DNA of 64,000 nucleotides from Polyangiaceae bacterium. Its GTDB lineage: Bacteria > Myxococcota_A > Polyangia > Polyangiales > Polyangiaceae. This document shows, piece after piece, positions 23,117 to 45,442 of this stretch. Under the pieces are notes generated by a model. The model was not told the DNA's origin and searched no databases. It worked only from the letters and a program-made list of their open reading frames with translations. The number at the start of each line of letters is the position of its first letter. Within the stretch, counting starts at the first letter, position 1. The position numbers were made by a program, and so were the translations under genes. The stretch covers positions 1 to 64,000 of the forward strand of contig JAICTZ010000023.1 in the NCBI GenBank assembly GCA_025936115.1, given 5' to 3'.

Positions 23117-23842
23117 TCAGCCGTCCAGGAGTAGTAGTTCGGGCTTGCCGGGCGCGTCGAAGGGGGTCGCGCCGGTACCGGCGAGCCATGCCATGAGCTC
23201 GATGCGTCCGGACAAGTGCAGCTTGCGGAATACGGCCCCGAGTTGGTTCGCTATGGTGCGTCGCGAGGTCCCCCGTAGCCCGGCCATCTGCGCGTAGCTG
23301 CGCCCCTCCATGCAGAGCGCCGCGACCAGACCCTCGCTCGGCGACAGCACCTCGGAAAGGCGCAAGTCGGGCCGTGAGAAGCTGACGACGGTCATGTCGT
23401 CGTCCCCGAAGCGGAGTGCCGAGCAGCGGCCGACCTGTAGGCTCTTCGCGTCGCGGCGCGCATGCACGAGCACGACGAGCGGCAACGGAACCCTCGAGCA
23501 GGTGCCTTCGACGTCGAGGTACCGCATCACGGCCTTGCACCGAATGGCGACGGTCGAAGCCGCGAGCTCCGCGTCGGCGGCCACGCACTTCTGAGCGCGC
23601 CCCAAGAGCACGGTTTCGAACGTCTCGAGTAGCTCGGGGGCGAGGGCCCTTCTTGTAGGTTTCTGATCGTACTTGAGCACGCATAGGCAGCGCTCCGAGG
23701 TGAGGAACCAATCGAGTATGCGGCGGCGGCCCGTCGTGAGTTGAATCCAGAGCTCGGGAAGTAGGATCCCCGTCGTGCTCGCATTGTCCGCGCGGATCGC
23801 CTGTTCACGCAATGATTCCGGATGTTTAACGAGCCCCTGCAT
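23117..23842 (-). CDS. LuxR-type transcriptional regulator
   Basis: 241 aa. C-terminal LuxR/GerE helix-turn-helix: LSPSEGLVAALCMEGRSYAQM, GTSRRTIANQLGAVFRKLHLSGRIELMAWLAG, with the canonical recognition helix and the RxxL end. The N-terminal about 160 residues are an uncharacterised sensor-like region with no receiver-domain Asp signature, so it is not a two-component regulator. It is divergent from the large kinase fusion gene across a 273-bp intergenic region and is the obvious candidate regulator of that locus. Confidence 0.85.
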   Translation of the reverse strand: MQGLVKHPESLREQAIRADNASTTGILLPELWIQLTTGRRRILDWFLTSERCLCVLKYDQKPTRRALAPELLETFETVLLGRAQKCVAADAELAASTVAIRCKAVMRYLDVEGTCSRVPLPLVVLVHARRDAKSLQVGRCSALRFGDDDMTVVSFSRPDLRLSEVLSPSEGLVAALCMEGRSYAQMAGLRGTSRRTIANQLGAVFRKLHLSGRIELMAWLAGTGATPFDAPGKPELLLLDG

Positions 23843-24115
23843 GCCGTGATCCTTTCGTGACGGGTCGACGCTCGGCCCGTGCTGCGGGCGAGTGAGACAT
23901 TCGCCGTCGGTTCCGGGGATACGACGACCGTTCCGGACACGTCCATTTCAACCGGCTTTCAGTCGGGATGGCCGCGCGCGCGTTGCAGGATCTGCGGGTC
24001 TTTGGAAAGCTGGAGTTCGAGATAACCCGGCTTCTGGGAGTGGCGAGTGGGCGCCTCACGGGGGTCTAGGCGAGAAGCGGCGTGCGAGTTACCATCCTGG
24101 GCTGAGGAACCGTCC
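23843..24115. promoter_or_regulatory. divergent intergenic region between LuxR regulator and kinase fusion
   Basis: 273 bp that must contain promoters for both flanking genes and likely LuxR-type binding sites. The segment at about 23928-23965 holds repeated CCGTTCCGG/CAACCGGCTTTC half-site-like elements. The kinase gene has a good ribosome binding site GAGGAA (24104-24109), 6 nt before its ATG. No confident -35/-10 pair is called. Confidence 0.4.
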
Positions 24116-27100
24116 ATGATCGTCGAACCGCGCGTCGGTGCCTCCAGCTTGGCGCGGGCTCTGGATGGCAAGTACCGCGTGCTCGAACCCCTCGGCGCGG
24201 GCGCCAGCGGACAAGTTCATCGAGCACTGCAGGTCAGCACAGGGCAGACGGTGGCCATCAAGGTGTTGAGTGTCGGGGAGTTCGAGCCGGCAGTCGCCGA
24301 GCGACGTATGGAGCGCTTCCGGCGGGAGATAGCCATCTGCTCGACCCTCTATCACCCCGACATCGTACGTTTGCTCGACTCGGGAGAGCTCGACGAAGCG
24401 ACACATTATGCCGTCTTCGAGTACATCCCGGGGACCACTTTGGCGGAGCTCTTGCGCGCTGAGGGGATGCTCAGCGTCAAACGCGCCAAGCGTCTGATGA
24501 CACAGCTGCTGGCGCCGCTCGCGTATGCCCACGCGAACGGCATTACCCACCGTGATCTCAAGCCGAGCAACGTCATGGTGACGAGCGACAGTCCGGGCGA
24601 ACGTGTGAAGATCCTGGACTTCGGGATCAGCGTCGCTATGGCGGCACAAGGCCTGACGCGTCTCACGCAGAGCCACGAGTGGGTCGGCACTCCCGCATAC
24701 GCAGCCCCCGAGCAGTTGCGCGGTGAACCCGCCAATGCCAAGTCGGACCTCTACGCTTGGGGGCTGATTTTTCTCGAGTGTCTGACCGGCGTCGCCGCGG
24801 TGCAGGGCAAATGGCTTGCCGACATCATCGAACAGCAATTGCAACCGGTGCCGCACCCGTTGCCGCCCGTACTGGCCGGGCATCGCTTGGGTGCGCTGCT
24901 CTCCAGAGTGCTCGAGAAGGATCCGCTCCGTCGGCCACGCGACGCTGCGCAGCTACTCACGATGCTCGACCGTATCGCGAGCGATGCTCTGGAGGACGCG
25001 AGCGGGTACCTGCGGGACGCACACCCCGCGCGCCCTCCGCAGCCGCGGCTCACGGACACGCTGACTGACGGGCACCTCGACGTGCGCATCGAGCGCCGGC
25101 GAGCGACGGTGCTCTGCGCCAAGGTCTCGCTCGCGAGCTCCAACGAAGGCATCGATTTGGAGCAGCTCGATCAAGTGCTCGAGGACGCGAGCGCAGTGGT
25201 CGGCGAAGTACTCGAGCAATACGGCGCTCGCTCGGCTCAGTCGCTCGGCGGCTACTCGCTCGGCTACTTCGGGATGCGGCAGTCGGGAGATCCCGACGGG
25301 CGCATCGCCATGCGCGCAGCGCTCGAGCTCGCCAACCGCGTCGAAAAAGGACCGCGTTGGGCGAGCGATCACGGACTTTCGTTGCGGGTTCAAATCGGCA
25401 TCCATCACGGGCCCGTGGTCGTGCGCGTCTCACGTGAAGTCCGCGAGCAGGTCAATGGTCTCACGGCACGCATCGCCATCGAACTCGCGGAGATCGATCG
25501 CGATCGGGAAGACGCGAACGCATGCATTCTCGTCAGCGACGATTTCCGGCAACTCGTGACGCGCCATGCCGAATTCGCCCGGGGCCGACGAGACTACGTC
25601 GCGAACCTGCCGTGGTCGTCGGCCCCTCTACGCGGCCATCCGCTTGCGGGGGAGTCGCGATCCGGATCGCTCGACCCGGCGGGGTCGCGTTTCGTGGGAC
25701 GCGCCGCCGAGCTCGACGAGCTCGTGCAGTCCTGGCGCACGCGCCAAGAGGGCGGCACCGCCACGGTTCTGTGCGGCGAGCCCGGAATCGGCAAGTCGCG
25801 GCTGTCCGCCGAATTCCGTCAGCGCCTCGAAGAAGAGGGCGCGGACTGGCTGGAGGCCCGCTGCCTGCCCGAGTGGAAGAACGCGTTCTTGCGGCCTCTC
25901 GCCGTGCTGTTCATGCAGCAGTTCGGGTTGAACGCCGTGAGCGCGGGCCAGGCGGGAGCTCACCTGGAGCAGCAGCTCCGCGCGCTCGGAATCAATACGC
26001 GCGACGCCGTGCCACTGATCTGCGTCTGGTTGTCGTTGCCGCTGCCTGCCGGCTACACGCCGTTGACGTGGTCGCCGCAGAAGCAGCGAGTCCTCCTGCA
26101 CCGGCGCGTCGCCGAAACGCTGATCGCGCGCATGCAGCGCCGCGCCGTGCTCTTCGTGGAGGACGTGCACTGGGCCGATCCGTCGACCATCGAGTGCCTC
26201 GACTTGCTGCTGCGGCTCTTGGAGAAGAGCGGTTGTTTCGTGTTGCTGACCACGCGAGAGGACGGCGCACCAGTCTGGTCGGTCGCTCCGCGCCGGATCG
26301 TGCTCACTCGTTTGGACAATGCTTCGACGCGGACGCTGGCCGCGACCTTGCTCGCGCGCGACGGCACGGACGACGCGTCGACGCTGGAGATCGCGGAGCG
26401 TTCCGACGGCATCCCACTCTATCTCGAAGAGCTTGCCCTCGCGCTGCGAGGCTTCGTCGCAGAGACGTACGCGAGCACGGAATCCGGTTCGCGTCGGGCG
26501 CTACCGACGGTTCCGGCGAGCCTGCGCGCCTTACTGACGAGCCGATTGGACGGCTTGGGCGCCGCGCGCAAGGTGGCGGAATTCGCGGCCGCGATCGGGC
26601 GGGATTTTTCCTTCGAGCTGTTGGTGGCGCTTTCCGGATCCGATGAATTCGGTTTGCTGGGGGACATCGAGCAGCTCGTGAGCGCGGGAGTCCTCGTCAA
26701 GCAACTGCGCGTCGACGGCGCCGTGTACAGCTTCCGTCACGCGCTGATTCGCGACGCTGCCTACGACGAGATGGAGCCGCCGATCCGTGCAGCGGTGCAC
26801 CGGCAGATCGCGGCGAGACTCGAGTCGGATTTCGCCGATCGCGTCGAGTCCGAGCCGGACATCCTCGCGCATCACTGGGAGCACGGCAAGAACCCCGACG
26901 CGGCCGTGCGTTATTGGCATACCGCCGCGAAGAGAGCACGGTTTGCCTCGGCACACCAAGAAGCGCTCGAGCAACTCGATCGCGGCCTCGCTCTGCTGCG
27001 CGGCTTGCCGGATTCTCCCGAGCGCAGCGCGGCCGAAGCGGACCTGCTCCTGACCCGCGGCACGATCGTGTTGGCCAAGCACGGCTACACCGCACCCGAA

Positions 27101-28219
27101 GTGGCGAGTCACTTCAGCCGCGTGTTGAGCCTCTTGCCTGCGGGTGGCGCCGTGACGGAACAGGCTTTCGACGCCCGCTGGGGCCTCTGGTACTACCACA
27201 ACACTCGCGCGAATCTCGAGCGCGCTGGCGAGCTCGCGGCTGAGCTCCGCGCGAACGCCGCCACGACCAAGAGCATCCGAATGAGCGTGAGCGCGTGGGA
27301 AGCAGTCTGCGAAACGCGCTTCTACGGGGGAGACTTGGCCGGGGCGGTCGAAGCCAGCAGAAGCTGCGAAGCGGAGTACGACTTCGAGCAACACCGGCAG
27401 CTCGCGACGTTGCGGGGTGACGATCCGCATCTGGCGTGCCTTTCGTTCGAGGCCATCGCCGAAATGGCTCGCGGTCGCGTCGCCGCGGCCATCGCCCGCG
27501 CCGAGCAGGGGCTCGCCCACGCCGAACGGCTCGGGTATCCGACGATGAAAGCCGCCATGCATTGTCAGGCGGCGCGTGTGTTCCTGCTGTGGGGTACGGC
27601 CGGTGCGTCGCGACCGAACGTCGTGCGAGCGCGGGAGCACAGCGCCGAGGCGCTCCGCATCGCGCGCGAACAGGGCTACGCATTCTGGGACGCGTACTCG
27701 CGCCTGATCGACGCCGCAGCGGCGATCAGCGCGGGTGAGGCTTCGGCCATGCACCGCCTCCGCGAGGCCTCCGATCGTTGGAACGGGATTGGCGCACGTC
27801 TCGGACGCTGCTGGCACTTGAGTTTCGTGAGCGAAGGTTTGCGACAGCAGCGGCAATTCGACGCCGCCCGTATCTCGCTGCGGGAGGCACTGGAATTCTG
27901 CGAGCTGAGCCGTTCCCGCTTCTTCGAGCCCGAAGTCCGCCGACGCAGGGCCGAGCTGTTCGTCGATCCGGAGGATGTCGGCCGCGACGAGCAGGCTGCG
28001 CGTGACGAGTTCGAGCGCGCTGCCGCCGTGGCCGACGCTTGTGGCTCATCCCTGTTCGGCCTCGCGGTCGCCGTGAGCCGGGCGCGCGTCTCGGCGACGC
28101 TCGGAGCCCCCAATCTGGCGGAGCTGAGCCGTCGCATCGAGCGTTGCGAGCTCGCTGACGCTCTGCCTCCTCCGATCGTCGTCGAAGCGCGCGAGCTCCT
28201 CGGCGCCCTCACGCGTTGA
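24116..28219 (+). CDS. kinase/degenerate cyclase/AAA ATPase/TPR fusion (TOMM kinase-cyclase type)
   Basis: 1367 aa. Domain order: Hanks kinase (about 20-290; GAGASGQVH loop, VAIKVL Lys, HRDLKPSNV at about 145, DFG at about 168, YAAPEQ); class III nucleotide cyclase homology domain (about 325-485); AAA/NACHT-like ATPase (FVGRAAEL about 523, Walker A GEPGIGKS about 555, Walker B VLFVEDVHWAD about 680); and a C-terminal TPR-rich half (about 940-1360). Length and order fit the TOMM system kinase/cyclase fusion family known in Burkholderia and Sorangium. The kinase looks active; the cyclase lacks both metal Asp residues (CAKV in place of FADI, LGGYSLGYF in place of GDG). ATG is fixed by GAGGAA 6 nt upstream. 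No TOMM cyclodehydratase is visible nearby. Its 3' end overlaps the convergent gene by 174 bp. Confidence 0.9.
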   Translation: MIVEPRVGASSLARALDGKYRVLEPLGAGASGQVHRALQVSTGQTVAIKVLSVGEFEPAVAERRMERFRREIAICSTLYHPDIVRLLDSGELDEATHYAVFEYIPGTTLAELLRAEGMLSVKRAKRLMTQLLAPLAYAHANGITHRDLKPSNVMVTSDSPGERVKILDFGISVAMAAQGLTRLTQSHEWVGTPAYAAPEQLRGEPANAKSDLYAWGLIFLECLTGVAAVQGKWLADIIEQQLQPVPHPLPPVLAGHRLGALLSRVLEKDPLRRPRDAAQLLTMLDRIASDALEDASGYLRDAHPARPPQPRLTDTLTDGHLDVRIERRRATVLCAKVSLASSNEGIDLEQLDQVLEDASAVVGEVLEQYGARSAQSLGGYSLGYFGMRQSGDPDGRIAMRAALELANRVEKGPRWASDHGLSLRVQIGIHHGPVVVRVSREVREQVNGLTARIAIELAEIDRDREDANACILVSDDFRQLVTRHAEFARGRRDYVANLPWSSAPLRGHPLAGESRSGSLDPAGSRFVGRAAELDELVQSWRTRQEGGTATVLCGEPGIGKSRLSAEFRQRLEEEGADWLEARCLPEWKNAFLRPLAVLFMQQFGLNAVSAGQAGAHLEQQLRALGINTRDAVPLICVWLSLPLPAGYTPLTWSPQKQRVLLHRRVAETLIARMQRRAVLFVEDVHWADPSTIECLDLLLRLLEKSGCFVLLTTREDGAPVWSVAPRRIVLTRLDNASTRTLAATLLARDGTDDASTLEIAERSDGIPLYLEELALALRGFVAETYASTESGSRRALPTVPASLRALLTSRLDGLGAARKVAEFAAAIGRDFSFELLVALSGSDEFGLLGDIEQLVSAGVLVKQLRVDGAVYSFRHALIRDAAYDEMEPPIRAAVHRQIAARLESDFADRVESEPDILAHHWEHGKNPDAAVRYWHTAAKRARFASAHQEALEQLDRGLALLRGLPDSPERSAAEADLLLTRGTIVLAKHGYTAPEVASHFSRVLSLLPAGGAVTEQAFDARWGLWYYHNTRANLERAGELAAELRANAATTKSIRMSVSAWEAVCETRFYGGDLAGAVEASRSCEAEYDFEQHRQLATLRGDDPHLACLSFEAIAEMARGRVAAAIARAEQGLAHAERLGYPTMKAAMHCQAARVFLLWGTAGASRPNVVRAREHSAEALRIAREQGYAFWDAYSRLIDAAAAISAGEASAMHRLREASDRWNGIGARLGRCWHLSFVSEGLRQQRQFDAARISLREALEFCELSRSRFFEPEVRRRRAELFVDPEDVGRDEQAARDEFERAAAVADACGSSLFGLAVAVSRARVSATLGAPNLAELSRRIERCELADALPPPIVVEARELLGALTR

Positions 28220-29254
28220 GCTCCACGGAAATTCGGCCGCTTGCCGGTGAAATCCAAGGTAGGCCTTGGCGCTCGTACCGAGCGCAGCGTGCCACACGAG
28301 CTTGAGATCCAGGAAGCGACCGCCGCGGAGCGCGCGCTCACCGCCGGGTTCACGCAGGACGTCGTGCAAACGCGTGACCTTCTCGGAGCTGGCGAGTCCG
28401 GCCGCACACCACCGCTCCAGGATCGCCCTGCGCAACGGATCGCTGTCCGGTCCGCGCACGACGTGTTGCTGCGCGACTGCGAGACCGAGCGTGCAGGTCG
28501 CTCGGTCTCGTAGGTTGCTGAGATTCACGTCGACGAAGGCGAGCTCGCCGAGCAGATCGGCCGGATAGAGCTGGTCGAGGAGCTCGGCGGCCACCGCCCG
28601 ATCGCCGGCCCATCCGATGAGATCGAGATACGGGAGAACGCCCGCGCGTGGAAGTACGCCGTAGAGCTTGAGGGCTGCCGGGGTGCGTCCCAGCATCCGG
28701 GAGACGTGAATCCAGCGCGAGCCTTGCGGAAGCGATGGGTAACATTCCGCGAGGAGCTCCTGCTCGGCGGGGCTCGCCGGTGCGTCGAGCAATTCCAGGA
28801 TGCTAGCGATGAGCGGCAGCTCGCGCGCAGGGTCGTTGGGGAAGGGCGCCTGACGTCGGTCGTAGCTCGGCGTCAGGCACACGCTCACGGAGGGGAAGCG
28901 AGTCCGAGCGTCGACCGCTTCGATATCGTCGAACTCGAGCCAGACGGTGGGTGCGTACAGGGAAATCGGCGAGAGGCCGTCCGCCCAGGCTGCGGTGAGG
29001 GCCACGAGCGGCTTCCAGCGCTCGCGTTCCAGCGCAGGGGTAGCGGCGAGCGCGCGCTCTAGCGTCGCCGGCAGCGACTTGGCCGCCGCCCGGGGCAGCG
29101 CGAGCAAGTAATCGAGCTCGCCCCGACGCGCGTCGAGGCGGCACTCGAGATACCGTGCATCACACGGCAGTTCCAGTTCACGCCAACCCTCTGGATCGAG
29201 AAAGGTCGGCGTTCCAAGCGTTTCGCGCAAGCGGGGGGGATGTTCCAAGCCCAT
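28046..29254 (-). CDS. unknown protein of about 402 aa, convergent with the kinase fusion
   Basis: No signal peptide or membrane helix; mixed alpha/beta composition. Notable stretches: TVWLEFDDIEAVDARTRFPSVSVCLTP (about 104), IHVSRMLGRTPAALKLYGVLPR (about 180), PYLDLIGWAGD, and near the end LKLVWHAALGTSAKAYLGFHRQ. This reminds me of a family of uncharacterised cyanobacterial/myxobacterial proteins ending in a K-A-Y-L-G-F segment, but I cannot name it. The start is coupled to the upstream gene by TGATG (an in-frame GTG at 29260 is possible). The last about 58 codons lie antisense inside the kinase gene; this tail is Arg/Glu-rich and may be poorly conserved. Confidence 0.72.
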   Translation of the reverse strand: MGLEHPPRLRETLGTPTFLDPEGWRELELPCDARYLECRLDARRGELDYLLALPRAAAKSLPATLERALAATPALERERWKPLVALTAAWADGLSPISLYAPTVWLEFDDIEAVDARTRFPSVSVCLTPSYDRRQAPFPNDPARELPLIASILELLDAPASPAEQELLAECYPSLPQGSRWIHVSRMLGRTPAALKLYGVLPRAGVLPYLDLIGWAGDRAVAAELLDQLYPADLLGELAFVDVNLSNLRDRATCTLGLAVAQQHVVRGPDSDPLRRAILERWCAAGLASSEKVTRLHDVLREPGGERALRGGRFLDLKLVWHAALGTSAKAYLGFHRQAAEFPWSSTREGAEELARFDDDRRRQSVSELATLDATAQLRQIGGSERRRDARPAHGDREAEQG

Positions 29255-29862
29255 CACCACCAGGGCGGGAAGCCGATGAACTCCTCCACCAGGACATCGC
29301 CGAGCGCCTCGGCCTCGGGATCCGACATTTGCGCAGGCTCGTGCGCGAGCTTCTGATCGTAGAACTGCTGCAGCGTCGCCTTCACGCCCGGATCGAGCGG
29401 CAGCCCATCGATCATCGCGGGCACGTTGCCCAAGCCTGGATCGGTCAGTTGATTGAGAAACAAGACGCCGAGAATCCGAAGCACCGGGCGATCGCTACCG
29501 AGCTGCGCGATACTGCGCGGGTCGGTGTTCGGTCGCGGCGCGGGCGCCGTGCTGCGGATTTCCTCGAAGATGCGCGCGATACCCACGCGGGCTTGGTTCG
29601 GAGTCGGGTAGTACAGCCCCCGGGAATCCGGACCGTTGCTGGGGACGTCGAGCGCGATCGTCTTGATGGTGTCTTCGGGAAACGCGGAGTCTCGGTTGTA
29701 ATTGTCGAGATACCCGCGGTAGTCGCGCGGAGGGGTCTCGGCGCGCGCAGCCGCCCAGCGGCCGTGCTCGCGCTCGCTGAAGGGATGATCGGTGAAGAGG
29801 GCATAGAGGAAGGCGAGGACCGGATATCCGTTTTGGTAGTAGTCAGGAGGTTCTAGCGGCAT
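29254..29862 (-). CDS. unknown 202-aa protein ending in FPPWW
   Basis: Soluble, no cysteines visible, no signal peptide. Starts MPLEPPDYYQNGYPVLAFLYALF and ends DVLVEEFIGFPPWW, with a Pro/Asn/Asp-rich centre (SNGPDSRGLYYPTPNQARVG). Preceded by a Shine-Dalgarno-like AAGGG. I recognise no family. It sits between the FHA regulator and the 402-aa unknown in one operon (stop overlaps the next start, TGATG). Its odd aromatic C-terminus and position beside a TOMM-type kinase make it worth testing as a substrate or precursor, but it has no Cys-rich core, so this is speculative. Confidence 0.72.
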   Translation of the reverse strand: MPLEPPDYYQNGYPVLAFLYALFTDHPFSEREHGRWAAARAETPPRDYRGYLDNYNRDSAFPEDTIKTIALDVPSNGPDSRGLYYPTPNQARVGIARIFEEIRSTAPAPRPNTDPRSIAQLGSDRPVLRILGVLFLNQLTDPGLGNVPAMIDGLPLDPGVKATLQQFYDQKLAHEPAQMSDPEAEALGDVLVEEFIGFPPWW

Positions 29863-29918
29863 GGAATCACCCTTGATGGAGGATTGAGACGTCGTGAGCA
29901 GATTGAAGCCCGGTGCGG

Positions 29919-30809
29919 CTATTCGGCTACTTCGCGCAGGCGCATGACGCCGATGCGGAGGCGCTTGGCGTCGTCGCGCTCGATCAGGCTCGCCGTGTTG
30001 TGCACGCCGGCCTCTTCGAGCAGCTTTCGGACACGATGGATGTCGACGTTGACCTTCTCGGGCATGCAGCCTCGCGCTTCGGCAAGCTCCGCCGACGAGA
30101 TCCAGCCGGCGTCCGGCTGTACCGGTCCGGCCCCGATGCGCAGACGCGCGAGCGCGAGCAGCGTGTACAGGCAGGCGCGCGAGGGTAGCTGCACGTGGTT
30201 CGGGCCTTGATCGATGCGCAGCGCCACGCGCTCGGCACTCACGCGAAACGTGAGCTCGGCGTGCGCCAAGTCGAATTCGTAGCGAGCCGTGAGATCGTTG
30301 CGAGTCGCCGAGATCTCCGGCAAGAGCAGGCGCCAATATCCGCTGCTCAGGCGCACGATGTCGCCGCATTCCGGTCGGGTCAAGCCGTTGCCGTCGTCGA
30401 GCAGCCACTGATCCCCGTCCGGCAGCACGCTCGCCTCGGGCTCGTCTGCGGACGGCAGGACGAGCAGCGTCTGCGTTCCCCACGTGTATGTCTGCGGGCC
30501 CAAGAGCAGCGCGCAGGGCTCCGGACGCGACGTATCGGCGACGGTCCAGACCTCGTCGCCCCCGAACGTGATCTCGCTGCCGCAGACGAGCGTCACTCGG
30601 TCGCGCGCGGCCACGGGGCGGCTGTCTACCGTCGTGCCGTTGCTACTGCCAAGATCGCGCAGCACCCAACGATCGGCGTACCAGCCGATCGACGCGTGCT
30701 CGCTCGATGCGCGCCGGCTCTGCAGGCGGAAGTCCGCGAGGGTGGAGCGGCCGACCAAGCTGCGGCAGGCCAGTTTCAACTCGCGGTTTCCGCTCGTGAC
30801 GATCGCCAT
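29919..30809 (-). CDS. FHA-domain protein with C-terminal winged-helix-like DNA-binding domain
   Basis: 296 aa from the ATG at 30809. Residues about 10-95 are an FHA phosphothreonine-binding domain: SLVGRSTLADFRL, RRASSEHASIGWY, VLRDLGSSNGTTVDSRP. The C-terminal about 90 residues (SRACLYTLLALARLR, DAGWISSAELAEARGCMPEKVNVDIHRVRKLLEEAGV, LIERDDAKRLRIG) have the helix-turn-helix plus wing layout of OmpR-like effector domains seen in myxobacterial FHA regulators. It probably reads phosphorylation by the nearby kinase and alters transcription. First gene of the minus-strand trio; divergent from the peroxidase gene. Confidence 0.87.
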   Translation of the reverse strand: MAIVTSGNRELKLACRSLVGRSTLADFRLQSRRASSEHASIGWYADRWVLRDLGSSNGTTVDSRPVAARDRVTLVCGSEITFGGDEVWTVADTSRPEPCALLLGPQTYTWGTQTLLVLPSADEPEASVLPDGDQWLLDDGNGLTRPECGDIVRLSSGYWRLLLPEISATRNDLTARYEFDLAHAELTFRVSAERVALRIDQGPNHVQLPSRACLYTLLALARLRIGAGPVQPDAGWISSAELAEARGCMPEKVNVDIHRVRKLLEEAGVHNTASLIERDDAKRLRIGVMRLREVAE

Positions 30810-30818
30810 TGCAGTCAA

Positions 30819-31072
30819 AGGATAGTGGTTCGAACTCCGCGGCAGAAGGACGATGAGCGGAGTGGGACCTGCTCGATAGCGAATCGACGCCTCGGCTAGC
30901 CATTTCGATCGTATTTCAGCGTGCCAGAGCCGGCCGCCACTGACCTTGGTATGACGCGGTCCCGTCGTGTCCGCGGCACGGGTCGTCGACGTTAGGAATT
31001 ACCATTTCAGGAGCGCACGCTGCCGTGCTGTTAATCCGTGACGCTGACGGGCGTGCTGACAGGAGGAGTTTG
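30819..31072. promoter_or_regulatory. divergent intergenic region between FHA regulator and haem peroxidase
   Basis: About 250 bp, locally AT-richer (GGAATTACCATTTCAGG, CTGTTAATCCG). It must drive both directions and is a natural target for the FHA-winged-helix protein. The peroxidase has a near-perfect Shine-Dalgarno AGGAGG at 31061-31066, 6 nt before its ATG. A CCCGT...ACGGG inverted repeat lies at 30961-30982. Confidence 0.4.
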
Positions 31073-32560
31073 ATGGCGAACGAAAATTCGTATCCTTGGC
31101 AACACACGCAGTCACCGCGGGGCTTCGGCCATGTGGCCGCGTCCCGCTCCTACGAGGGTCGCTTCGGCCGAATGTTCCGCGAGCTGCCCCCAGCGTTATT
31201 TTCCGAGGTCAAGCTCGGAGCGCTCGCCCGATCGATGGTTTCGCCGGCCAACAACGTCCCGCTACAGGACGCGCAGGGCAGCAGATTCGCCGACCAGGAC
31301 GAGAACCTGAAAATCCCCGCCGGGTACACCTATCTCGGCCAGTTCATCACGCACGACCTCACCTTCGACCCGAGCCCGCTCGGTGATCGGCAGAACGATC
31401 CGGAAGGCGTGCTGGACTTTCGAACGCCGCGCTTCGATTTGGACTCTCTCTACGGCCGCGGTCCCGTTGATCAGCCGTACATGTATCAGACGGACGGCAA
31501 GCTCCTCGTGGGCGAGTCGCGCTCGACGAGGAATCAATTCGCGGGACCGGACCTACCGAGGGCGACGAACGGTCGCGCGATCATCGGCGACCCGCGAAAC
31601 GACGAGAACAAGATCATCTCGCAGTTCCACGCGCTTTTCACGCGTTTCCACAACGTCACGCTGGATCGGTTGCGCGGCGACTTCGACGCTGCGCAACTGC
31701 AAGTGCGCTGGGCTTATCAGTGGCTGGTCGTGAACGATTTCCTGCCGCGCTTGGTGCCACGAGCGATCATCGACTCGATTCTGGTCCCCGACGAGGACGC
31801 GATCCACGACGATGACTACGTGAAGGTACCCGGCGGACCGTCGTCGGTGCGGCGCTTCGAGCCGAAGCTTCGCCATTTCATACCGCGCAAGCACGCGTTC
31901 ATGCCGGTCGAATTCACCGCCGCCGCATTTCGTTTCGGTCACTCTATGGTTCGCCCCGCCTATCTCCTCAACGATTTGGTTCGGCCGAATGCCTCGTTCA
32001 GAATCCCGCTCTTTGCGCCTGGGGGGAGCTGGACCGACGATCTCCGCGCTTTTGGCCCGCTGCCGGAGAACTGGGGCATTCAGTGGGGCTACTTCTTCGA
32101 CCTGCGTAAGGTCTCGTACCTGCCGCAAGGGAGCTATCTCATCGATGAAACCCTGGCGTTGCCCCTCGCGAGTCTACCGAACCCCATCGTCACCGAGGGC
32201 GCGTCTGCTCTCGCTCAGCGAACTCTAAATCGAGGAGTCCAGCTCGGCTTGCCGTCGGGACAGGACGTCGCGAGCTTGCTCGGGATGAGCCCGCTCGACG
32301 ACGAAGAACTCTTCCCGGATCCGGGCTTGCGGGCGATCTTTTCCGGCAGCGCGCCCCTTTGGTATTACGTCTTACGCGAGGCCACCGTCCATGCGAGCGG
32401 TGTGCGGCTCGGCCCCGTCGGCGCCACCATCGTGGCCGAGGTCATCATCGGCCTGCTATGGCACGACCCGCAGAGCTACCTGCGCCGAGCTCCGCGTTGG
32501 AGGCCGAAGTTCGGCGACGACATGGCGGCCTTGATTCGCGAAGTCGGGGCGCCCATCTGA
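31073..32560 (+). CDS. animal-type haem peroxidase
   Basis: 495 aa. Member of the animal haem peroxidase (peroxinectin/cyclooxygenase) superfamily: IPAGYTYLGQFITHDLTFD carries the distal His and following Asp; LDSLYGRG and RSTRNQFAG follow; IISQFHALFTRFHNVTLDRL and WAYQWLVVNDFLPRLV form the core helices; FRFGHSMVRPAYLLND contains the proximal His. No signal peptide, so it may be cytoplasmic or exported another way. Bacterial members oxidise phenols, halides or lipids with H2O2. It is followed directly by a covalent-FAD oxidase that could supply H2O2; the stop overlaps the frame of that gene. Confidence 0.92.
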   Translation: MANENSYPWQHTQSPRGFGHVAASRSYEGRFGRMFRELPPALFSEVKLGALARSMVSPANNVPLQDAQGSRFADQDENLKIPAGYTYLGQFITHDLTFDPSPLGDRQNDPEGVLDFRTPRFDLDSLYGRGPVDQPYMYQTDGKLLVGESRSTRNQFAGPDLPRATNGRAIIGDPRNDENKIISQFHALFTRFHNVTLDRLRGDFDAAQLQVRWAYQWLVVNDFLPRLVPRAIIDSILVPDEDAIHDDDYVKVPGGPSSVRRFEPKLRHFIPRKHAFMPVEFTAAAFRFGHSMVRPAYLLNDLVRPNASFRIPLFAPGGSWTDDLRAFGPLPENWGIQWGYFFDLRKVSYLPQGSYLIDETLALPLASLPNPIVTEGASALAQRTLNRGVQLGLPSGQDVASLLGMSPLDDEELFPDPGLRAIFSGSAPLWYYVLREATVHASGVRLGPVGATIVAEVIIGLLWHDPQSYLRRAPRWRPKFGDDMAALIREVGAPI

Positions 32561-32580
32561 CCCAGCCCCCGGCCTCCAGC

Positions 32581-33933
32581 GTGGAAGCAGCGGCGCGTTG
32601 TGCCGACCAACTGCGCCGCTACTGCAAGGGCGAAGTGTTCGCCGGCGGTGCCGTGCCGGCGGCGCTCGCGCGCGACTTCGGTGGCATGGTGGAGCGGCGG
32701 CCCGCGCTCGTACTCCGGCCGGCTCAGGTGTCCGACCTTGCGCTGGCGCTCCGTTGCGCGGCCGAGCACGAGCTCGACGTTACGGTGCGCGGTGCCGGGC
32801 ATAGTCAATCCGGCCAATGCCTTGGCGTGGGGCTTCTTCTCGACTTGACGGGCTTCAATCGAGTCTCCGTGTCCACTTCCGCGGCGCTCGTAGAAGCGGA
32901 AGCAGGTGCAACGTGGCACAGCATCGTGACGGCCGCAGCCGCCCGACACTGCATGCCGCTCGCTCCGACCCATGCGCTCGACATGACGATCGCCGGTACA
33001 TTGAGTGTCGGCGGACTCGGCGCGGAATCGTTCCGCCACGGTGCGCAAGTCGACCAGGTCGCGTACTTCGATGTTCTCGTTCCGGATGGGCGCGTCATCC
33101 GCTGCGATCGAGTGACGGAGCGTAGCTTGTTCGACGCGGTTCGGGCCGGGCTCGGCCAATGCGGGGTCGTCGTCCGCGTCGGCTATCCGCTGCGGCGGTG
33201 CAAGAGACAGCTGCTGACACGTTGCTTCGCATTCACGGAACCGGAACGCTTTCTCCTCGCTGCGCGAGAGCTCGCCGGGGAAGACTCGAGTGCGGGCTGG
33301 CTCGCCGGCGCGATCCGCTCGCAGCCAGGCCGTGCACGCCCGATTCTGTATCTACTGCTCGGACAAGAGTGCGACTCGGCTGCGGACGCGCCAAAGCTCG
33401 GTGATCTCGGAGAGGACTTCGAGCTGCCAGCGCGTGTCTTCCCCACGTGGACCCCCGCACGGGCGGCGGGGCATCCTTTTTTTCGTGTGTTCGGGAGCGA
33501 CGGCGGGCAAGCGAGGCTAAATCCTTGGGTCGATCACCTCTTCGGCGAGAGCGACGCATCGAGCGCCCTCGCGGCGTTTCTCACCGAACCGCACGAGGTT
33601 GCGCGACGCGGCACCACGAACCTTGGTTTCGTGCGGCGTGGGGACGCGGCCGCGCCGCTGCTACGCGCGCCCGCCGGCGAACTACTCCTTTGCATTTCCG
33701 CGCTGCCCGTCTTCGATGTCGTCGAGCGCCTGGAGGCGGAGGAGATCATGCTCGCGTATGCCGAGCGCGCGCGCGCACGCGGCGGCTTTCGCTATCTCTC
33801 CGGCTTTCTCGGGCCTATGGTGCACGCTGCATGGTTACGCCAGTTCGGCGAAGCGTGGCCAGCGTTCAAAGCCGCCAAAGAGCGCCACGATCCAGCGCAG
33901 CTCTTGAACCCGGGCCTCATCGACTGGGGCTGA
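32581..33933 (+). CDS. FAD-linked oxidase, cytokinin dehydrogenase-like
   Basis: About 450 aa. VAO/PCMH-type flavoprotein: VTVRGAGHSQSGQC holds the GHS motif whose His is the 8-alpha-histidyl FAD link in cytokinin dehydrogenases; MTIAGTLSVGGLGAESFRHG and QVDQVAYFDVLVPDGRV are the second FAD segment. The C-terminal half has RLNPWVDHLF, like the HPW region of cytokinin dehydrogenase substrate domains, and ends ERHDPAQLLNPGLIDWG. Such oxidases reduce O2 to H2O2. Start uncertain: GTG at 32581, or a CTG at 32557 that overlaps the peroxidase stop (CTGA). It converges on the GT2 gene with 14 bp between. Confidence 0.85.
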   Translation: MEAAARCADQLRRYCKGEVFAGGAVPAALARDFGGMVERRPALVLRPAQVSDLALALRCAAEHELDVTVRGAGHSQSGQCLGVGLLLDLTGFNRVSVSTSAALVEAEAGATWHSIVTAAAARHCMPLAPTHALDMTIAGTLSVGGLGAESFRHGAQVDQVAYFDVLVPDGRVIRCDRVTERSLFDAVRAGLGQCGVVVRVGYPLRRCKRQLLTRCFAFTEPERFLLAARELAGEDSSAGWLAGAIRSQPGRARPILYLLLGQECDSAADAPKLGDLGEDFELPARVFPTWTPARAAGHPFFRVFGSDGGQARLNPWVDHLFGESDASSALAAFLTEPHEVARRGTTNLGFVRRGDAAAPLLRAPAGELLLCISALPVFDVVERLEAEEIMLAYAERARARGGFRYLSGFLGPMVHAAWLRQFGEAWPAFKAAKERHDPAQLLNPGLIDWG

Positions 33934-39318: not shown

Positions 39319-40348
39319 CGTCGTGCAGCGCGTCCGTGCCCAGTCGCCGCCGGGCCGCCGGGTCCCGCGAGCGCTCGCGCAGAAAGCGCGAGAGTTCACG
39401 CTCGCTCGCGAAGTGCTTGCCGGCGTGCCGAATCGCCTTGCGGATGAACTTGGGGCGCCGCTTCGTCTCTTCGACGATCTTGATCACGTACTCACCGAGC
39501 ACGGCCAAGGCGAGCAACTGGAGACTGCCGAAGAACGCGACCAGCGCGAGGACGAGGGCCGTGCCGTGGGGTGCGTCGGGGCGGCGCACCACGTCGACGG
39601 CCAGATAGCCGAGGGCGAGCAACGAGAGCGCCGTCATGAGCGCTCCCGCGTACCCGAGCACTTCGATCGGCAGGAAACTGAACGAGAAGATGCCCTTCTT
39701 CGCCCACCAGACGTTCTTGAGCTGCCCGTGCGTCGAACGCCCAAACGCGCGCTCGGGCCGGACGTAATCGACGCCCACTTGGGTAAAGCCAATCCACGCC
39801 CGCAGCCCGCGCAGGAATTGGTCCGTCTCCGGTAAGGCGAGCAGCGCGTTCACGACTTTACGATCCATCAAAGCGAAGTCGCCCGCGTCGACCGGCATCC
39901 GTACGTCGGACACGCCGCGGAAAATCCGATAGAAGACCTTGCAGCAGAGCGCCAAGAGTGCCGACCCTTCGCGCTTGGTCCGGCGTCCGTACACGACGTC
40001 GTTGCCTTGGCGCCACTTCGCGTAGAACTCGCCAATCAGTTCGGGCGGATCCTGCAGGTCGCCGTCGAGGAGGATGACGGCGTCACCGGTCGCGAGCTGC
40101 ATCCCGCTCACGAACGCGTTCTGCGAGCCGAAGTTGCGCGAATGCTCGATCGCGAGCACGTGGTCGTCCTTGGCCGTCAATTCCTTCAGCACGGCATCGG
40201 CGTCGTCGGGACTCGCGTCGTTGACGAAGATGATCTCGTAGCCGGCGCCCAAAGCCCGGAACACCTCCGTGAGCCGCGCGTGCATCGGGACGAGCGCCTG
40301 CGCGTCCCTGTAACAGATGATGACTGCAGACAGCGTCGGTTCAGGCAC
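39308..40348 (-). CDS. GT2 glycosyltransferase with two C-terminal TM helices (DPM1/GtrB-like)
   Basis: 346 aa from GTG at 40348. GT-A domain: LSAVIICYRDAQALVPMHARL, IIFVNDASPDDADAVL, AIEHSRNFGSQNAFVSGM, AVILLDGDLQDPPELI (DxD/QDPPE signature), then two transmembrane helices (GYAGALMTALSLLALGYLAVD and ALVLALVAFFGSLQLLALAVLG) and the EYVIKIVEETKRRPKFI end typical of GtrB/ArnC-type polyprenyl-phosphate glycosyltransferases. It probably makes a polyprenyl-phosphate sugar for the GT-C enzymes. The start overlaps the transketolase C-subunit stop by 8 nt. Confidence 0.93.
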   Translation of the reverse strand: MPEPTLSAVIICYRDAQALVPMHARLTEVFRALGAGYEIIFVNDASPDDADAVLKELTAKDDHVLAIEHSRNFGSQNAFVSGMQLATGDAVILLDGDLQDPPELIGEFYAKWRQGNDVVYGRRTKREGSALLALCCKVFYRIFRGVSDVRMPVDAGDFALMDRKVVNALLALPETDQFLRGLRAWIGFTQVGVDYVRPERAFGRSTHGQLKNVWWAKKGIFSFSFLPIEVLGYAGALMTALSLLALGYLAVDVVRRPDAPHGTALVLALVAFFGSLQLLALAVLGEYVIKIVEETKRRPKFIRKAIRHAGKHFASERELSRFLRERSRDPAARRRLGTDALHDDAG

Positions 40349-41249
40349 GGAGCAGTGTCTCCAGGCGGGAGACCAGCGGCCAACCGGCAAGCCCGCTTTC
40401 TTCCTGGTGCCAGCGCTGGCTCCCGTAACGTGCCGAGGGATAGCCCGCGGCGTAGAGACAGCTCAGGCTTTGCGGAATGACGCGCGACGTGAGGAAGGCG
40501 TGGCTCAGGGCTTCGCCGAGCCCGCAGGAACGATAGTGCTCCTCCATGGTGATGACGCGGCGCTTTTCTCGGATACTCGTCGCTAGCTCGGACGGAATCG
40601 CTTCGAGTGGCAGCGTGCCGACACTCCAGATCTCGAGCTCGTCGAAGAGCTCTGGCGTGCTCAGCTGATACAGTCCCTGGAGGACCGGGCCCATGCCGAT
40701 CACCACCGCGCTGCGTCCGGATTTGAGCTTGCGCCAGGCAGCGAACGGCGGGACGCCTCCGGGGATTTCGGCGGCCACGTTCAAGCGCAGGTAGTTAGGT
40801 GACGGGTCCGCTGCCATCGCGTTCACGACGAGAGGCACGTCGTCGGCGACGAGCGGAAGGTAGAGCTTCATGTTCGGCAGCGCGCGGAGGGCGCCCACGT
40901 CCTCGAGCGCGTGATGCGTCGGTCCCATGATGCCGTAGCCGTAGCCGCCGCCGTTGCCGACGAGCTTGACTGGAAGCTCGTGCAAGCAAACGTCGTCGCG
41001 AATTTGCTCGAAGGGCCGCAACACCGCAAAAGCCGCGATGCTGTACACCCAGGGCAGGAGCCCGGCGCGCGCCAGTCCGGCAGCCACGGACACCGCGTTC
41101 TGCTCCGCGACGCCCGCATTGACGAAGCGTTCTCCGTACGCCTGCGCGAGGCCCTCGAACGCCAGGTAGCCGAGGTCACCGGTGACGAACACGAGGTCCT
41201 TCCGCCGCCCGAGGAGCTGCAGCATGGCCTCCGCGAATTCAGCGCGCAT
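40341..41249 (-). CDS. transketolase-like, C-terminal subunit
   Basis: 302 aa. Pyrimidine-binding and C-terminal domains of a split transketolase: DLVFVTGDLGYLAFEGL, RFVNAGVAEQNAVSVAAGLA (TPP-activating Glu in AEQN), LRPFEQIRDDVC, GYGYGIMGPTHHALEDVGALRALPN, and VITMEEHYRSCGLG. Overlaps the N-subunit stop by 11 nt. Split transketolases occur in sugar and secondary metabolite clusters and transfer two-carbon ketol units; the product here is not known. Confidence 0.92.
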   Translation of the reverse strand: MRAEFAEAMLQLLGRRKDLVFVTGDLGYLAFEGLAQAYGERFVNAGVAEQNAVSVAAGLARAGLLPWVYSIAAFAVLRPFEQIRDDVCLHELPVKLVGNGGGYGYGIMGPTHHALEDVGALRALPNMKLYLPLVADDVPLVVNAMAADPSPNYLRLNVAAEIPGGVPPFAAWRKLKSGRSAVVIGMGPVLQGLYQLSTPELFDELEIWSVGTLPLEAIPSELATSIREKRRVITMEEHYRSCGLGEALSHAFLTSRVIPQSLSCLYAAGYPSARYGSQRWHQEESGLAGWPLVSRLETLLRA

Positions 41250-42090
41250 TCCGATACTCGTCGAGCCGGGCCCGATGTGCGCGCGTCAGCTCGTCCAAAC
41301 CCCGCTCGTATTGCTCGTCCCCGAGGGGCAGGTAATGGGAGTCCACCGTGTTCTCGAGCTGGCTGATGCCATTGCCTTTCACCGTGTTCGCGATGATGGC
41401 GACCGGCCGCCCATGAGTGTCGAGCTGGCGCGTGGACTCGTCGCGTGCGGCGAGCAGGGAAGGGAAGTCATGGCCGCCCGTGACCACGACGTGAAAGCCG
41501 AAGGCGCGAAGCTTGGCGTCGAGCGGCTCGAGCGCCATGATCTCCTCGGTGCGACCGATGCCCTGAATGCCATTACGATCGATGAGCCAGACGAGATTGT
41601 CGAGCTTGTGGTGGGCGATGAAGAGCGCCGCTTCCCAGACGCTCCCCGCGTCGAGCTCGCCGTCGGAAGTGACGCAGAAGAAGCGCCGCGACAGGCCCTT
41701 GAGCCGCGCGCCCAGCGCCATACCGGCACTGAGCGAGAGTCCGTGGCCGAGGCTTCCGGTAGCGAACGAGATCTCCTCGAACGTGTTGAACGGGGGATGC
41801 GCCGGCAACTCCGTCCCGTCGGCACGGTAGGAATCGATCTGGCTCGGCGTGAGGACGTCGACCTCCGCCAGCAGCGAATAGAGCACGGCCACGGCGTGCC
41901 CCTTGGACAGCAGGAGCGCGTCGTCGTCGCTCATCCAGGCAAACTTGAGCAGTACCAGGAGCTCAGCGCAAGACAGCGCGCCGCCGATGTGGCCCGCGTG
42001 AGCCCTCTTGGACATGGCGAGCAGGCGCTGCTTGATCGAGAAGACGTGCTCCTCGAGCCTGACGCATGCGGCCGCTATGTCCTTCGGCAG
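41239..42090 (-). CDS. transketolase-like, N-terminal (TPP-binding) subunit; start uncertain
   Basis: About 258-283 aa. TPP pyrophosphate domain: HAGHIGGALSCAELLVLL, LLLSKGHAVAVLYSLLAEV, ISFATGSLGHGLSLSAGMALGARL, and the GDG-like metal site CVTSDGELDAGSVWEAALF with LIDRNGIQGIG. The first ATG (42015) lies only six residues before HAGHIGG, yet the codons before it read CVRLEEHVFSIKQRLLA, exactly the kind of helix that precedes this motif in transketolases. The true start should thus be farther up; between the previous stop (42104) and 42015 only CTG (42088-42090) or ATA is available. I give the CTG as outer limit. Confidence 0.82.
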   Translation of the reverse strand: MPKDIAAACVRLEEHVFSIKQRLLAMSKRAHAGHIGGALSCAELLVLLKFAWMSDDDALLLSKGHAVAVLYSLLAEVDVLTPSQIDSYRADGTELPAHPPFNTFEEISFATGSLGHGLSLSAGMALGARLKGLSRRFFCVTSDGELDAGSVWEAALFIAHHKLDNLVWLIDRNGIQGIGRTEEIMALEPLDAKLRAFGFHVVVTGGHDFPSLLAARDESTRQLDTHGRPVAIIANTVKGNGISQLENTVDSHYLPLGDEQYERGLDELTRAHRARLDEYRNAR

Positions 42091-42103: not shown

Positions 42104-44107
42104 CTACTTCCCGTAGTTCGTGCTCACGATGTTCGCGTGGATGGCGTTGTCCGTCGTGTCCGAGGGGTACCCGGATACGATGGCCCCTTCGTAGAAGGTC
42201 CCCTGGCTCGCATTGTTGTTGCTGTAGCAGCAGTCGCCGCCGCTGCCGAGCACGATGGAGCCTTGCTTCTTCATGGGGTTCTTCCCGGGGGGGAGCGCTC
42301 CCTTGTAGTACGTGTTCAACGTCGGGGCCGTCGCGTCGGCGGCCTTGAGGGCAAACTCGGTCGTCCCGTTGTTCTTCTCCATGGCCGTCACGTACGTCGA
42401 CGTCTGGCTCATGAGGTTGTTGTTTTTGCCGCTGCCGCCTTGGGCGACCATGCCGTCTTCCATGTCGGCCATCACCCACGGGCCCGTACCGTTCCCCGTG
42501 CCCCACGTCGTCGAGCTACCGAAGTAGAGCGAATCCATCGAGGGGCCGGCCACGTAGGTTCGGCTGGTCTCGCCGTTGCCGTAGTCGTAGCAACACCCCG
42601 AGTTGAAGTGCTTTCCGCTCGTGACGATGTAGATGCCCTGAGGCGCGGCAGCGAGGGGCATGCCCGACTTCGAGCCGTCTCTCCAGTATGCCTGACTGGT
42701 CTTCGTGTAGAGCGAGTAGACCTTGTGACCGTCGACCATCAGCGACTCGGCGGTTGCGCTCGCCGCCGTTTGGCCTGAGTGACCGCCGACAGTGCTGTCC
42801 GGGGTCTCTGCCTCGAGGACGTTGTCGTGGCCGGATTGGTCATAGAGCTTGGTGATGGTGCATTGTGTGCCCGAGCAGAAGGTGTCTTGCTGGGCCGAGT
42901 CCGCAAAGCCGCCGGGGCTCGCGACGGGGATGTCCTTGGTCGTGCCGTCCGAGCGCTTTACCTGGTAGAGATTGCCGGTGTACGCGCCAAAGAGCGCGCG
43001 AATCGTGCTGTGGGCTGCAACGCACGGAGTGTTGGCCGCCGCATAGATGTCGCATGGTCCCATGCCCGTTGGACTCGAGCCCGCGCTGCCACTCCAGCCG
43101 CCAGCGCCGGAGGCGCCGCCACCACTGCCACCCGTCCCCGCTCCGCCACGGCCGGCGGCGCCGCCCATGGAGCGGCCCCCGCTGCCGCCGCTGCCGCCAC
43201 TGCCAGATGTCCCGCCCGTGGACGGCATGCCACCGGCTCCTCCGGTCGCGGGAGCACCGCCCGTCGGGGACGCTCCACCGGTGCCGGCTCCGCCACCGGC
43301 TCCGCCCGACGCAGCGGCGTTCTGGAGCGCGATGGTTCCTCCGAGCGCTGCCATGTGGGGGGTGACGGTCAGGGTGTTACCCGCAGCGCAGTACGCGTAG
43401 GTCAAGCCGTCATCGTTCGTGAACGTGTTGCCCGAGCTCGTGTCGGCCCCGTGCGTCGACGCAACGGACGAGACGAACCCGAGCCCGCCGGGCTGATTGG
43501 CGGTGAGCGTGCAGGTGCACTTGCCGTTGGTATCGGCGCAGGCAGACGTGGCCCAGCCGAGGGCTGGGAAAATCGTGCCCGCCTTCTCGCATGAGACGGG
43601 AACGGAGGAGACCGTGAGACAGGCCTGCGACAGAGGAAAAGTCACCGAGCCGGTCGTAGTCGTATTGTCGACGTAGGAGCCGTCAGCGTTGACCGTGTAG
43701 CTCCCGGTGGTGTTTAAGGAACCGGTTGCAGGTACCGTAGAACAGCCGAGGCTGGCGAGCGTCACATCCATGTTGCCCGCGATCCGCAGGCACGAAGACG
43801 TGACGTTCCAGGTTCCGACCAAGCTGCCGCCACAGGCCGACACGTTCGGACACTCTGCGCTGCCGGAGCCCCCGCTGCCGCCGGAGCTGCTGGTGCCCCC
43901 CTTCCCGCCGGTGACTACCCCGCCGCCTGCGCCACCCACGCCGCTGCCGCCTGTCCCCGTAAGAGTGCCGGCGCTGCCACCGCTCGCGGTGTTGTCGGGG
44001 CTGTTGCTGCAGCTCGCGGCTGTGACGGCGGCTGCGAACGGCACCGCCCCGACGAGGGCGTTTCGTAGCAGTGCGCGGCCAAGAGTCCTACGGGAGTACA
44101 GCTTCAT
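42104..44107 (-). CDS. GH54 alpha-L-arabinofuranosidase lipoprotein with lipocalin-like N-terminal domain
   Basis: 667 aa. Signal with twin-Arg-like SRRTLGR and possible lipobox AASC, Gly/Ser linker, a Cys-rich beta domain (about 60-270; LVGTWNVTSSCLRIAG), a second Gly-rich linker, then a catalytic domain (about 350-667) closely like fungal AbfB: CDIYAAANTPCVAAHSTIRAL, FCSGTQCTITKLYDQSG, CCYDYGNGETS (nucleophile Glu), GPWVMADMEDG, GSGGDCCYSNNN (acid/base Asp) and GTFYEGAIVSGYPSD. GH54 removes arabinofuranosyl side chains from arabinan or arabinoxylan. The fungal arabinose-binding CBM42 is absent. ATG placed by the signal peptide; the frame upstream is unsupported. Confidence 0.9.
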   Translation of the reverse strand: MKLYSRRTLGRALLRNALVGAVPFAAAVTAASCSNSPDNTASGGSAGTLTGTGGSGVGGAGGGVVTGGKGGTSSSGGSGGSGSAECPNVSACGGSLVGTWNVTSSCLRIAGNMDVTLASLGCSTVPATGSLNTTGSYTVNADGSYVDNTTTTGSVTFPLSQACLTVSSVPVSCEKAGTIFPALGWATSACADTNGKCTCTLTANQPGGLGFVSSVASTHGADTSSGNTFTNDDGLTYAYCAAGNTLTVTPHMAALGGTIALQNAAASGGAGGGAGTGGASPTGGAPATGGAGGMPSTGGTSGSGGSGGSGGRSMGGAAGRGGAGTGGSGGGASGAGGWSGSAGSSPTGMGPCDIYAAANTPCVAAHSTIRALFGAYTGNLYQVKRSDGTTKDIPVASPGGFADSAQQDTFCSGTQCTITKLYDQSGHDNVLEAETPDSTVGGHSGQTAASATAESLMVDGHKVYSLYTKTSQAYWRDGSKSGMPLAAAPQGIYIVTSGKHFNSGCCYDYGNGETSRTYVAGPSMDSLYFGSSTTWGTGNGTGPWVMADMEDGMVAQGGSGKNNNLMSQTSTYVTAMEKNNGTTEFALKAADATAPTLNTYYKGALPPGKNPMKKQGSIVLGSGGDCCYSNNNASQGTFYEGAIVSGYPSDTTDNAIHANIVSTNYGK

Positions 44108-44283
44108 GTGCTCGCTGATCTGAGGAGCCGACGGACTATTTCCGCCGGGCCTGTCCGGGCAGTGCGCCGGATGTCTCCCGTCCGTCAGAAATTGTTCCAT
44201 GCGCCCCGGCCGACGGAGAAAGTGGAGCCCTGCCGCCGCACCGTCGCGGTGAGCGCGCCGTCGTGGCACACTAGCTTCGCTCG
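44108..44283. promoter_or_regulatory. divergent intergenic region between GH54 and GH114 lipoprotein genes
   Basis: 176 bp that must serve both hydrolase genes. I see no confident operator or paired hexamers. Confidence 0.3.
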
Positions 44284-45411: not shown

Positions 45412-45442
45412 CCGCGATTTGCGCCGCGCGCGCGGCCGGGTT

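Follow-up and report, generated by a model that had tools for sequence, protein, structure and literature searches.

A probable RiPP-like locus of a Polyangiaceae bacterium pairs a predicted ABBA-fold prenyltransferase with a small protein ending in Trp

Contig C56 of an 83-contig assembly totalling 8.06 Mb carries the 64,000-nucleotide stretch of Polyangiaceae DNA analysed here (the window). The genes named in a preliminary description of this DNA, encoding GerE, kinase-AAA_16, FHA, 402-aa, 202-aa, An_peroxidase and FAD_binding_4 proteins, were all found where it had placed them (Table 1). The FHA, p202 and p402 genes are codirectional, in that order, and two divergent pairs are formed, one by POX/FADox and the FHA gene, the other by the LuxR and kinase genes. 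The peroxidase contains GQFITHD (at 89) and RFGHS (at 287), which resemble the distal and proximal His motifs, and GAGHS at 71 of the FAD oxidase presumably has a role in covalent FAD attachment. Neither an exporter nor a protease was recognised with Pfam among the 10 window genes scanned. About 60 residues of the 402-aa ORF lie beyond the family domain, whose match ends at position 28229, and nearly the whole of this C-terminal tail overlaps the 3' end of the convergently oriented kinase gene, which runs to 28219. This run of the p402 ORF into the kinase gene (28046-28219) could be either a natural overlap or an assembly frameshift.

Table 1. Genes and features of the locus (positions in the window).
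Feature	Position	Strand	Evidence
LuxR/GerE regulator	23117..23842	-	GerE over cut-off (Pfam)
Ser/Thr kinase - degenerate cyclase-like - AAA_16 ATPase - TPR-like fusion (TIGR03903 TOMM_kin_cyc)	24047..28219	+	763.3 bits (curated cut-off 705.75)
p402, 402-aa predicted ABBA-fold prenyltransferase, uncharacterised family	28046..29254	-	AF2 model, Foldseek and VIA matches, kept residues
p202, 202-aa putative precursor/acceptor, end ...GFPPWW	29254..29862	-	TGATG overlap with p402 start; C-terminal Trp like the L028, L029 and L031 partners
TGATG stop/start overlap, p202 stop and p402 start	29252..29256	-	Read from sequence; one base common to both; both frames open
FHA-domain protein, leading the FHA-p202-p402 genes	29919..30809	-	FHA over cut-off (Pfam)
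Animal-type haem peroxidase (POX), ATG start assumed	31073..32560	+	PF03098 over cut-off
FAD_binding_4 oxidase (FADox), GTG start assumed	32581..33933	+	PF01565 over cut-off

Among the matches listed, the kinase fusion is the only protein of its own genome above the TIGR03903 cut-off, 23 of the 181 first-look candidates having been scored. We take its HRDLKPSN, DFG and GEPGIGKS stretches to be intact kinase and P-loop motifs, and both positions at which we would expect a metal-binding Asp in the cyclase-like part to be replaced (LCAKV, LGGYSLGYFG). This part gives no Pfam cyclase match at E 0.01, so that the earlier label of TOMM kinase-cyclase fusion stands as to the family, but its cyclase looks degenerate. 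Among the 20 fusions aligned, the cyclase-like region is present only in those of the window and of two further loci (L028, L029). TOMM clusters with a large Ser/Thr kinase (Haft 2010, PMC2887384) have a kinase fusion of the TIGR03903 family in common with the window, and in Burkholderia a large Ser/Thr kinase is reported to have NHLP-type precursors next to it. Unlike such clusters, the window contains no YcaO, since the genome has a single YcaO match, which sits on contig C5 next to a TfuA-like protein. The lack of a cyclodehydratase at the locus, already remarked upon in the preliminary description, is thus borne out, and membership of the cluster among the TOMM systems was ruled out.

Of the two proteins previously left as unrecognised, neither has a Pfam match, but p402 can be recognised by the predicted structure. 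No match was obtained with Pfam for six members of its family at E up to 1, nor in a PDB sequence search with p402 at E up to 5. The AF2 model, built from 8 sequences, is of moderate confidence (pLDDT 71.3, pTM 0.72). ABBA-type prenyltransferases make up 50 of 50 Foldseek and 50 of 50 VIA entries among the matches listed, at Foldseek TM-scores of 0.3-0.5 and rmsd of 6-9 A, and the order of secondary structures in the model, together with these matches, fits a ten-strand antiparallel barrel of alpha-beta-beta-alpha repeats. Low mutual sequence similarity is reported between ABBA groups (PMC13290415). Residues E37, D48, E107, D109, R190, K318, K330 and Y332 of p402 are invariant in 20 of 20 aligned rows, R39 is kept in 18 of 20, and position 196 is K or R in all 20. 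Among them, R39, R190, position 196, K318, K330 and Y332 would be candidates for the basic and Tyr residues that ABBA enzymes have inside the barrel for the diphosphate. p402 is thus most likely, judging from its model, an ABBA-fold prenyltransferase of an uncharacterised family. Titles and abstract beginnings in the literature, a search in which subscription journals are thinly covered, gave no description of this family in myxobacteria, and an earlier one is possible; the words Sorangium and Myxo- are absent from the main text of PMC12715784 and PMC13290415.

In the loci fetched, genes were called by a codon-position GC rule. The Myxococcota set consists of 29 loci with 31 p402-type genes, window included, among them near-copies from related genomes that are not independent; two weak matches (G303:C73:35247 and a G409 fragment) are excluded from every count. 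Of the 205 genes lying no more than 5 kb from a p402-type gene, 18 encode kinases of at least 900 aa, vs 2 of 146 farther away (Fisher p 0.0019); such kinases occur in 18 of the 29 loci, an ATPase part being tagged in 16. FG-GAP proteins, tagged by a pattern with a Pfam check in L072 and L034 only, show a similar distribution (19/205 vs 1/146, p 0.0002; 18 loci), and sigma-54 regulators give no significant difference (7/205 vs 2/146). The tag SMALL, into which FG-GAP proteins had strayed, was left out of these comparisons. These results agree with the earlier proposal that the genes form a real module. The conserved co-occurrence that had been suggested as a check is found for p402 with large kinases, but not for p202, which is found only in its own genome (1/108 genomes), nor for the peroxidase, conserved by sequence in 3 of the 108 genomes of the genome family, own included.

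The FHA domain is the only Pfam domain above cut-off on the FHA protein, and a homologue of this protein lies near a p402-family gene in 3 of the 29 loci, window included, with matches over most of its length in L072 and L085. In addition, LuxR and FHA homologues are both present in 7 of 7 further loci, which were fetched because LuxR and FHA matches lay close together. One of them, L102, comes from the same genome and has a 1155-aa kinase fusion after the pair, with YcaO and TfuA farther on; in another, from the same genus (L103, G075:C215), the FHA homologue is 57% identical and a lantibiotic dehydratase is encoded about 3 kb away from it. RiPP-type enzymes were found in these two of the seven loci. 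L105 has an FGE-sulfatase-type protein, the short contig of L107 has the same neighbours as L105, and no RiPP-type enzyme was met among the genes scanned in L104, L106 and L108.

Two observations argue against a mere juxtaposition of independent units (FHA-p202-p402, POX-FADox, LuxR and the kinase): the LuxR-FHA pair recurs, in the same genome alongside a kinase fusion that YcaO and TfuA follow, and large kinases are enriched near p402-type genes. Juxtaposition is given some weight by the abundance of kinase-like and FHA proteins (181-521 first-look TIGR03903 candidates per genome in 14 genomes; all 108 genomes matching the FHA protein, mostly via the FHA domain) and by the poor conservation of the peroxidase and p202, and we regard it as improbable. 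These genomes also encode proteins over the TIGR03903 cut-off elsewhere than near p402 genes. As side observations, L102 (5256-15471 on G000:C5), with its YcaO and TfuA-like proteins and two 400-415-aa proteins matched by neither Pfam nor NCBIfam, is a possible thioamidation-type RiPP locus, and L103 (9125-19792) encodes, besides Lant_dehydr N and C, a 555-aa and a 603-aa protein that have no Pfam match.

In Myxococcota, p402-type genes mostly adjoin the gene of a small protein bearing a Trp, for which three layouts were named after viewing the sequences. In the first, helices resembling LigA/NHLP are followed by a linker and mostly by an Ig/TIG-like part; the linker contains a Trp in 20 of 21 units (the exception being L087), and this Trp column ties with a Leu as the most conserved one. 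In the second, the protein is short and its residue 2 or 3 is Trp (L072, L086, L088, L089); in L086 and L089, start codons were chosen by us inside longer ORFs, and the Trp position therefore depends on the chosen start. In the third, the protein ends in Trp: PPWW in the window, PPIW in L028, RDFW in L029 and AFCW in L031. A partner Trp is thus found in 25 of the 29 loci, or 26 if a distant protein of L090 is counted, which is 75 aa long, ends in Trp and lies about 5 kb from the p402-type gene; L091 and L093 have no recognised partner.

An NHLP-type leader was considered for the linker-Trp partners and not retained. Matches in those scanned are sub-threshold only (for L039, LigA 24.3 vs 25.3, IniB_NTERM 32.7 vs 40 and NH_RiPP_Os17 16.8 vs 40; for L085, LigA and NH_RiPP_Os17 near E 0.08-0.09), and we therefore use 'LigA/NHLP-like' as a label only. 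The TIG match of L034 is likewise sub-threshold (16.7 vs 20.9). In L040 and L043, LigA-like helices, the linker Trp and a TIG-like part are fused to an FG-GAP protein, and the acceptor may therefore be a domain of a larger protein.

p202 itself has no family match in Pfam or NCBIfam, its leader is not recognised, and its single-sequence model is uninformative (pLDDT 46.5). Its likeness to the other Trp-ended partners is weak, the number of shuffles scoring as well, of 5000, being 232 for L031, 735 for L029 and 1892 for L028. An HMM built from the linker-type partners misses p202, L029 and L031 and finds L028 marginally (6.4 bits vs 4.3 for the best shuffle); homology of p202 to the LigA/NHLP-like partners was not borne out by the HMM and shuffle tests and was dropped. 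Proteins ending in Trp are few, 10 of 496 called proteins, and these 10 include three p402 partners and the L090 protein. We infer that p202 is the acceptor, because of its position, the gene overlap and its Trp tail, and likewise that Trp is the site, as well as the length of the donor.

Outside myxobacteria, relatives of p402 are encoded on three plasmid records (Pseudanabaena galeata pPg_03, Nostoc UHCC 0926 and Azospirillum B510), within about 5 kb of NHLP/Nif11 precursors over the NCBIfam cut-offs. pPg_03 has an annotated LanM and a Nif11-like precursor ending in PPIKW. Azospirillum has NHLP-type precursors ending in KKPW, PRKW and LIKW, two of which were scanned and are over the TIGR03793 cut-off. 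In Nostoc, NHLP and Nif11 precursors lie near the relative (one of each scanned, over its cut-off), and none of the 4 inspected ends in Trp. The fourth relative, L100 of Iningainema tapete, matches a profile built without it at E 1.4e-60; its p402 domain is fused to a squalene-hopene-cyclase-like SQHop_cyclase_C (PF13243, 30.2 vs 26.1 bits), and a nearby 76-aa VNGG peptide has no Trp. Precursors ending in Trp are thus present at 2 of 4 non-myxobacterial loci. In Azospirillum and Pseudanabaena, a leader-bearing precursor with Trp lies near the predicted prenyltransferase; p202 has the Trp and the position, and no recognised leader. A protein of about 597-598 aa, with an N-terminus alike by eye, also adjoins the p402-type gene in Pseudanabaena (L110 7637-9433) and Azospirillum (L112 3920-5713).

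The p402 family is thus tied to RiPP precursors and Trp-bearing partners, and the p402 gene overlaps that of p202. This association bears upon another reading, according to which p402 would be an ABBA prenyltransferase whose acceptor is an aromatic small molecule (free Trp, indole or phenol), with p202 a helper or an unrelated small protein. The best VIA matches by Z, among those listed, are CymD, MpnD and 6-DMATS, enzymes of free Trp or indole compounds, and they point in that direction, as does the unrecognised leader of p202. The peptide-acting LimF, PatF and PagF are nevertheless among the Foldseek matches and, together with the RiPP precursors outside myxobacteria and the Trp-bearing partners in most Myxococcota loci, make the small-metabolite reading unlikely, even if it is the most serious of the alternatives.

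The enzyme tree follows the partner layout. In a first tree, which includes L085 and L091 and excludes L073 (a split match, though among the 29 loci), the enzymes with a C-terminal-Trp partner form one group (support 95/88; 96% of 200 bootstrap trees), and four of the five N-terminal-type rows group together (95/99). The layout labels take 7 changes vs a shuffled mean of 12.5, with 0 of 200 shuffles as low; L093, L072 and L091 are on long branches. In a second tree of 24 thinned rows, with the L110 and L112 plasmid relatives added and without L072, L091 and L093, the C-terminal-Trp label takes 3 changes (7 of 500 shuffles as low), because Azospirillum and Pseudanabaena group with cyanobacteria (99/98). 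The myxobacterial C-terminal-Trp group is recovered (89/86), and L090, on a long branch, joins the group of the window (81/93). The distant relative of L093 (G303:C73, 4091-12518) adjoins a YcaO/leader-binding fusion (TOMM SagD) over the TIGR03604 and TIGR03882 cut-offs, with an FA_desaturase/GlnE-like protein and an MMPL protein at the same locus.

The peroxidase was considered as anchor of the module and rejected: relatives exist on plasmids (34 records), but it is restricted to the few genomes given above, a scan of genome contigs found no relative, and blastp with p402 on the two other loci fetched (L045, L046) gave no match. Peroxidases occur in 2 of the 29 p402 loci, among the selected neighbours scanned with Pfam. 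The other one is L031, of the same genus; its 402-type protein has a 191-aa partner with a C-terminal Trp, and the gene of a DyP-type haem peroxidase (PF20628, 22.1 vs 20 bits) overlaps that of the partner by 4 bases. L031 also has a LuxR homologue (29%, E 7e-21) and an ATPase/GAF/histidine-kinase fusion, the kinase-like N-terminus of which is a sub-threshold Pkinase match. In L039, an FAD_binding_4 protein adjoins the p402 gene, and L028 and L029 each encode a 483-492-aa protein with one CxxCH, without a Pfam match at the thresholds used. Because of these L031, L039 and L028/L029 proteins, oxidative tailoring is plausible in the C-terminal-Trp group, over few loci.

The preliminary description had proposed that kinase signalling controls the oxidative modification of a small protein. 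The small protein is retained here as the likely substrate, but oxidation is not supported as the core of the pathway, as the conserved enzyme is the predicted prenyltransferase. A purely oxidative scheme, with the peroxidase and the FAD oxidase acting on the small protein under kinase control and no prenylation, could draw on the overlap of the DyP gene (another peroxidase family) with its partner gene and on the CxxCH proteins; the rarity of peroxidases at p402 loci weighs against it, and we consider it the least probable of the schemes examined.

Prenylation of a peptide Trp has precedents. NctPC, a prenyltransferase-cyclase fusion, is reported as a Trp geranylgeranyltransferase with an alpha-beta-beta-alpha barrel and low similarity to the cyanobactin prenyltransferases (PMC13290415). 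It would have the barrel in common with the p402 family, where it is modelled, as well as the Trp target that we propose, and its two-domain layout is that of L100. In contrast, p402 is single-domain, encoded in a myxobacterial-type genome and accompanied by kinase and FHA genes. MppC, reported as an enzyme of ABBA-type fold like that predicted for p402, geranylates a Trp of a lanthipeptide and needs its Nif11 leader (PMC12715784). Its core is made a lanthipeptide by MppM, whereas no lanthionine enzyme was found among the window genes scanned, and its precursor has a Nif11-like leader whereas that of p202 is not recognised. Because of architecture and context, p402 would belong with NctPC-P and MppC. 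In the PalQ/PalX system, a C-terminal Trp is prenylated on an NHLP-type precursor and a histidine kinase gene is in the cluster (PMC10853753), but PalQ is of the isoprene-synthase superfamily, in contrast to the ABBA fold predicted for p402, and the kinase type differs.

Taken together, we consider it fairly probable that the locus is a RiPP-like cluster in which p402 prenylates the C-terminal Trp of p202. With an isoprenyl diphosphate as the donor, p402 would prenylate the indole of W201/W202, and the haem peroxidase and FAD oxidase would probably tailor the product further. The LuxR and FHA proteins, like the kinase-ATPase fusion, are probably regulators of expression or timing, and the kinase may perhaps phosphorylate a partner read by the FHA domain. 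As p402 is likely a terpene-to-Trp enzyme, the pathway would be one that tags a peptide with a lipid and has a kinase and regulators of its own, and not one of oxidation alone.

A broader and more speculative possibility, which we put forward tentatively, is that a widespread, unnamed ABBA family of myxobacteria lipidates whole small proteins on one exposed Trp, at either terminus or in the linker that precedes a TIG/Ig-like part, as a bacterial counterpart of protein prenylation. Its modules would comprise dedicated Ser/Thr kinase-ATPase fusions and often FG-GAP proteins, the window being a C-terminal-Trp variant with haem peroxidase tailoring. If the prenylation reading of the locus is right, (i) a function would be given to a family matched by no Pfam or NCBIfam model, (ii) ABBA-type Trp prenylation of ribosomal peptides would extend from cyanobacteria to kinase-linked myxobacterial modules, and (iii) the 'TOMM kinase' label may mark a broader class of RiPP-associated regulator. 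The idea would be directly testable, since the modified residue is predicted in each partner. In the genus, the LuxR-FHA pair may likewise serve as a marker of modification loci, at some of the loci where it occurs: a predicted ABBA prenyltransferase here, YcaO-TfuA in the same genome and lantibiotic dehydratase in a relative.

Finally, outside the module, the window contains genes for plant-polysaccharide degradation, encoding alpha-L-arabinofuranosidase B and GH30 proteins (42104-47509), and a split transketolase (40341-42015), of which the N part and the pyrimidine-binding part are separate genes and which a glycosyltransferase gene adjoins.
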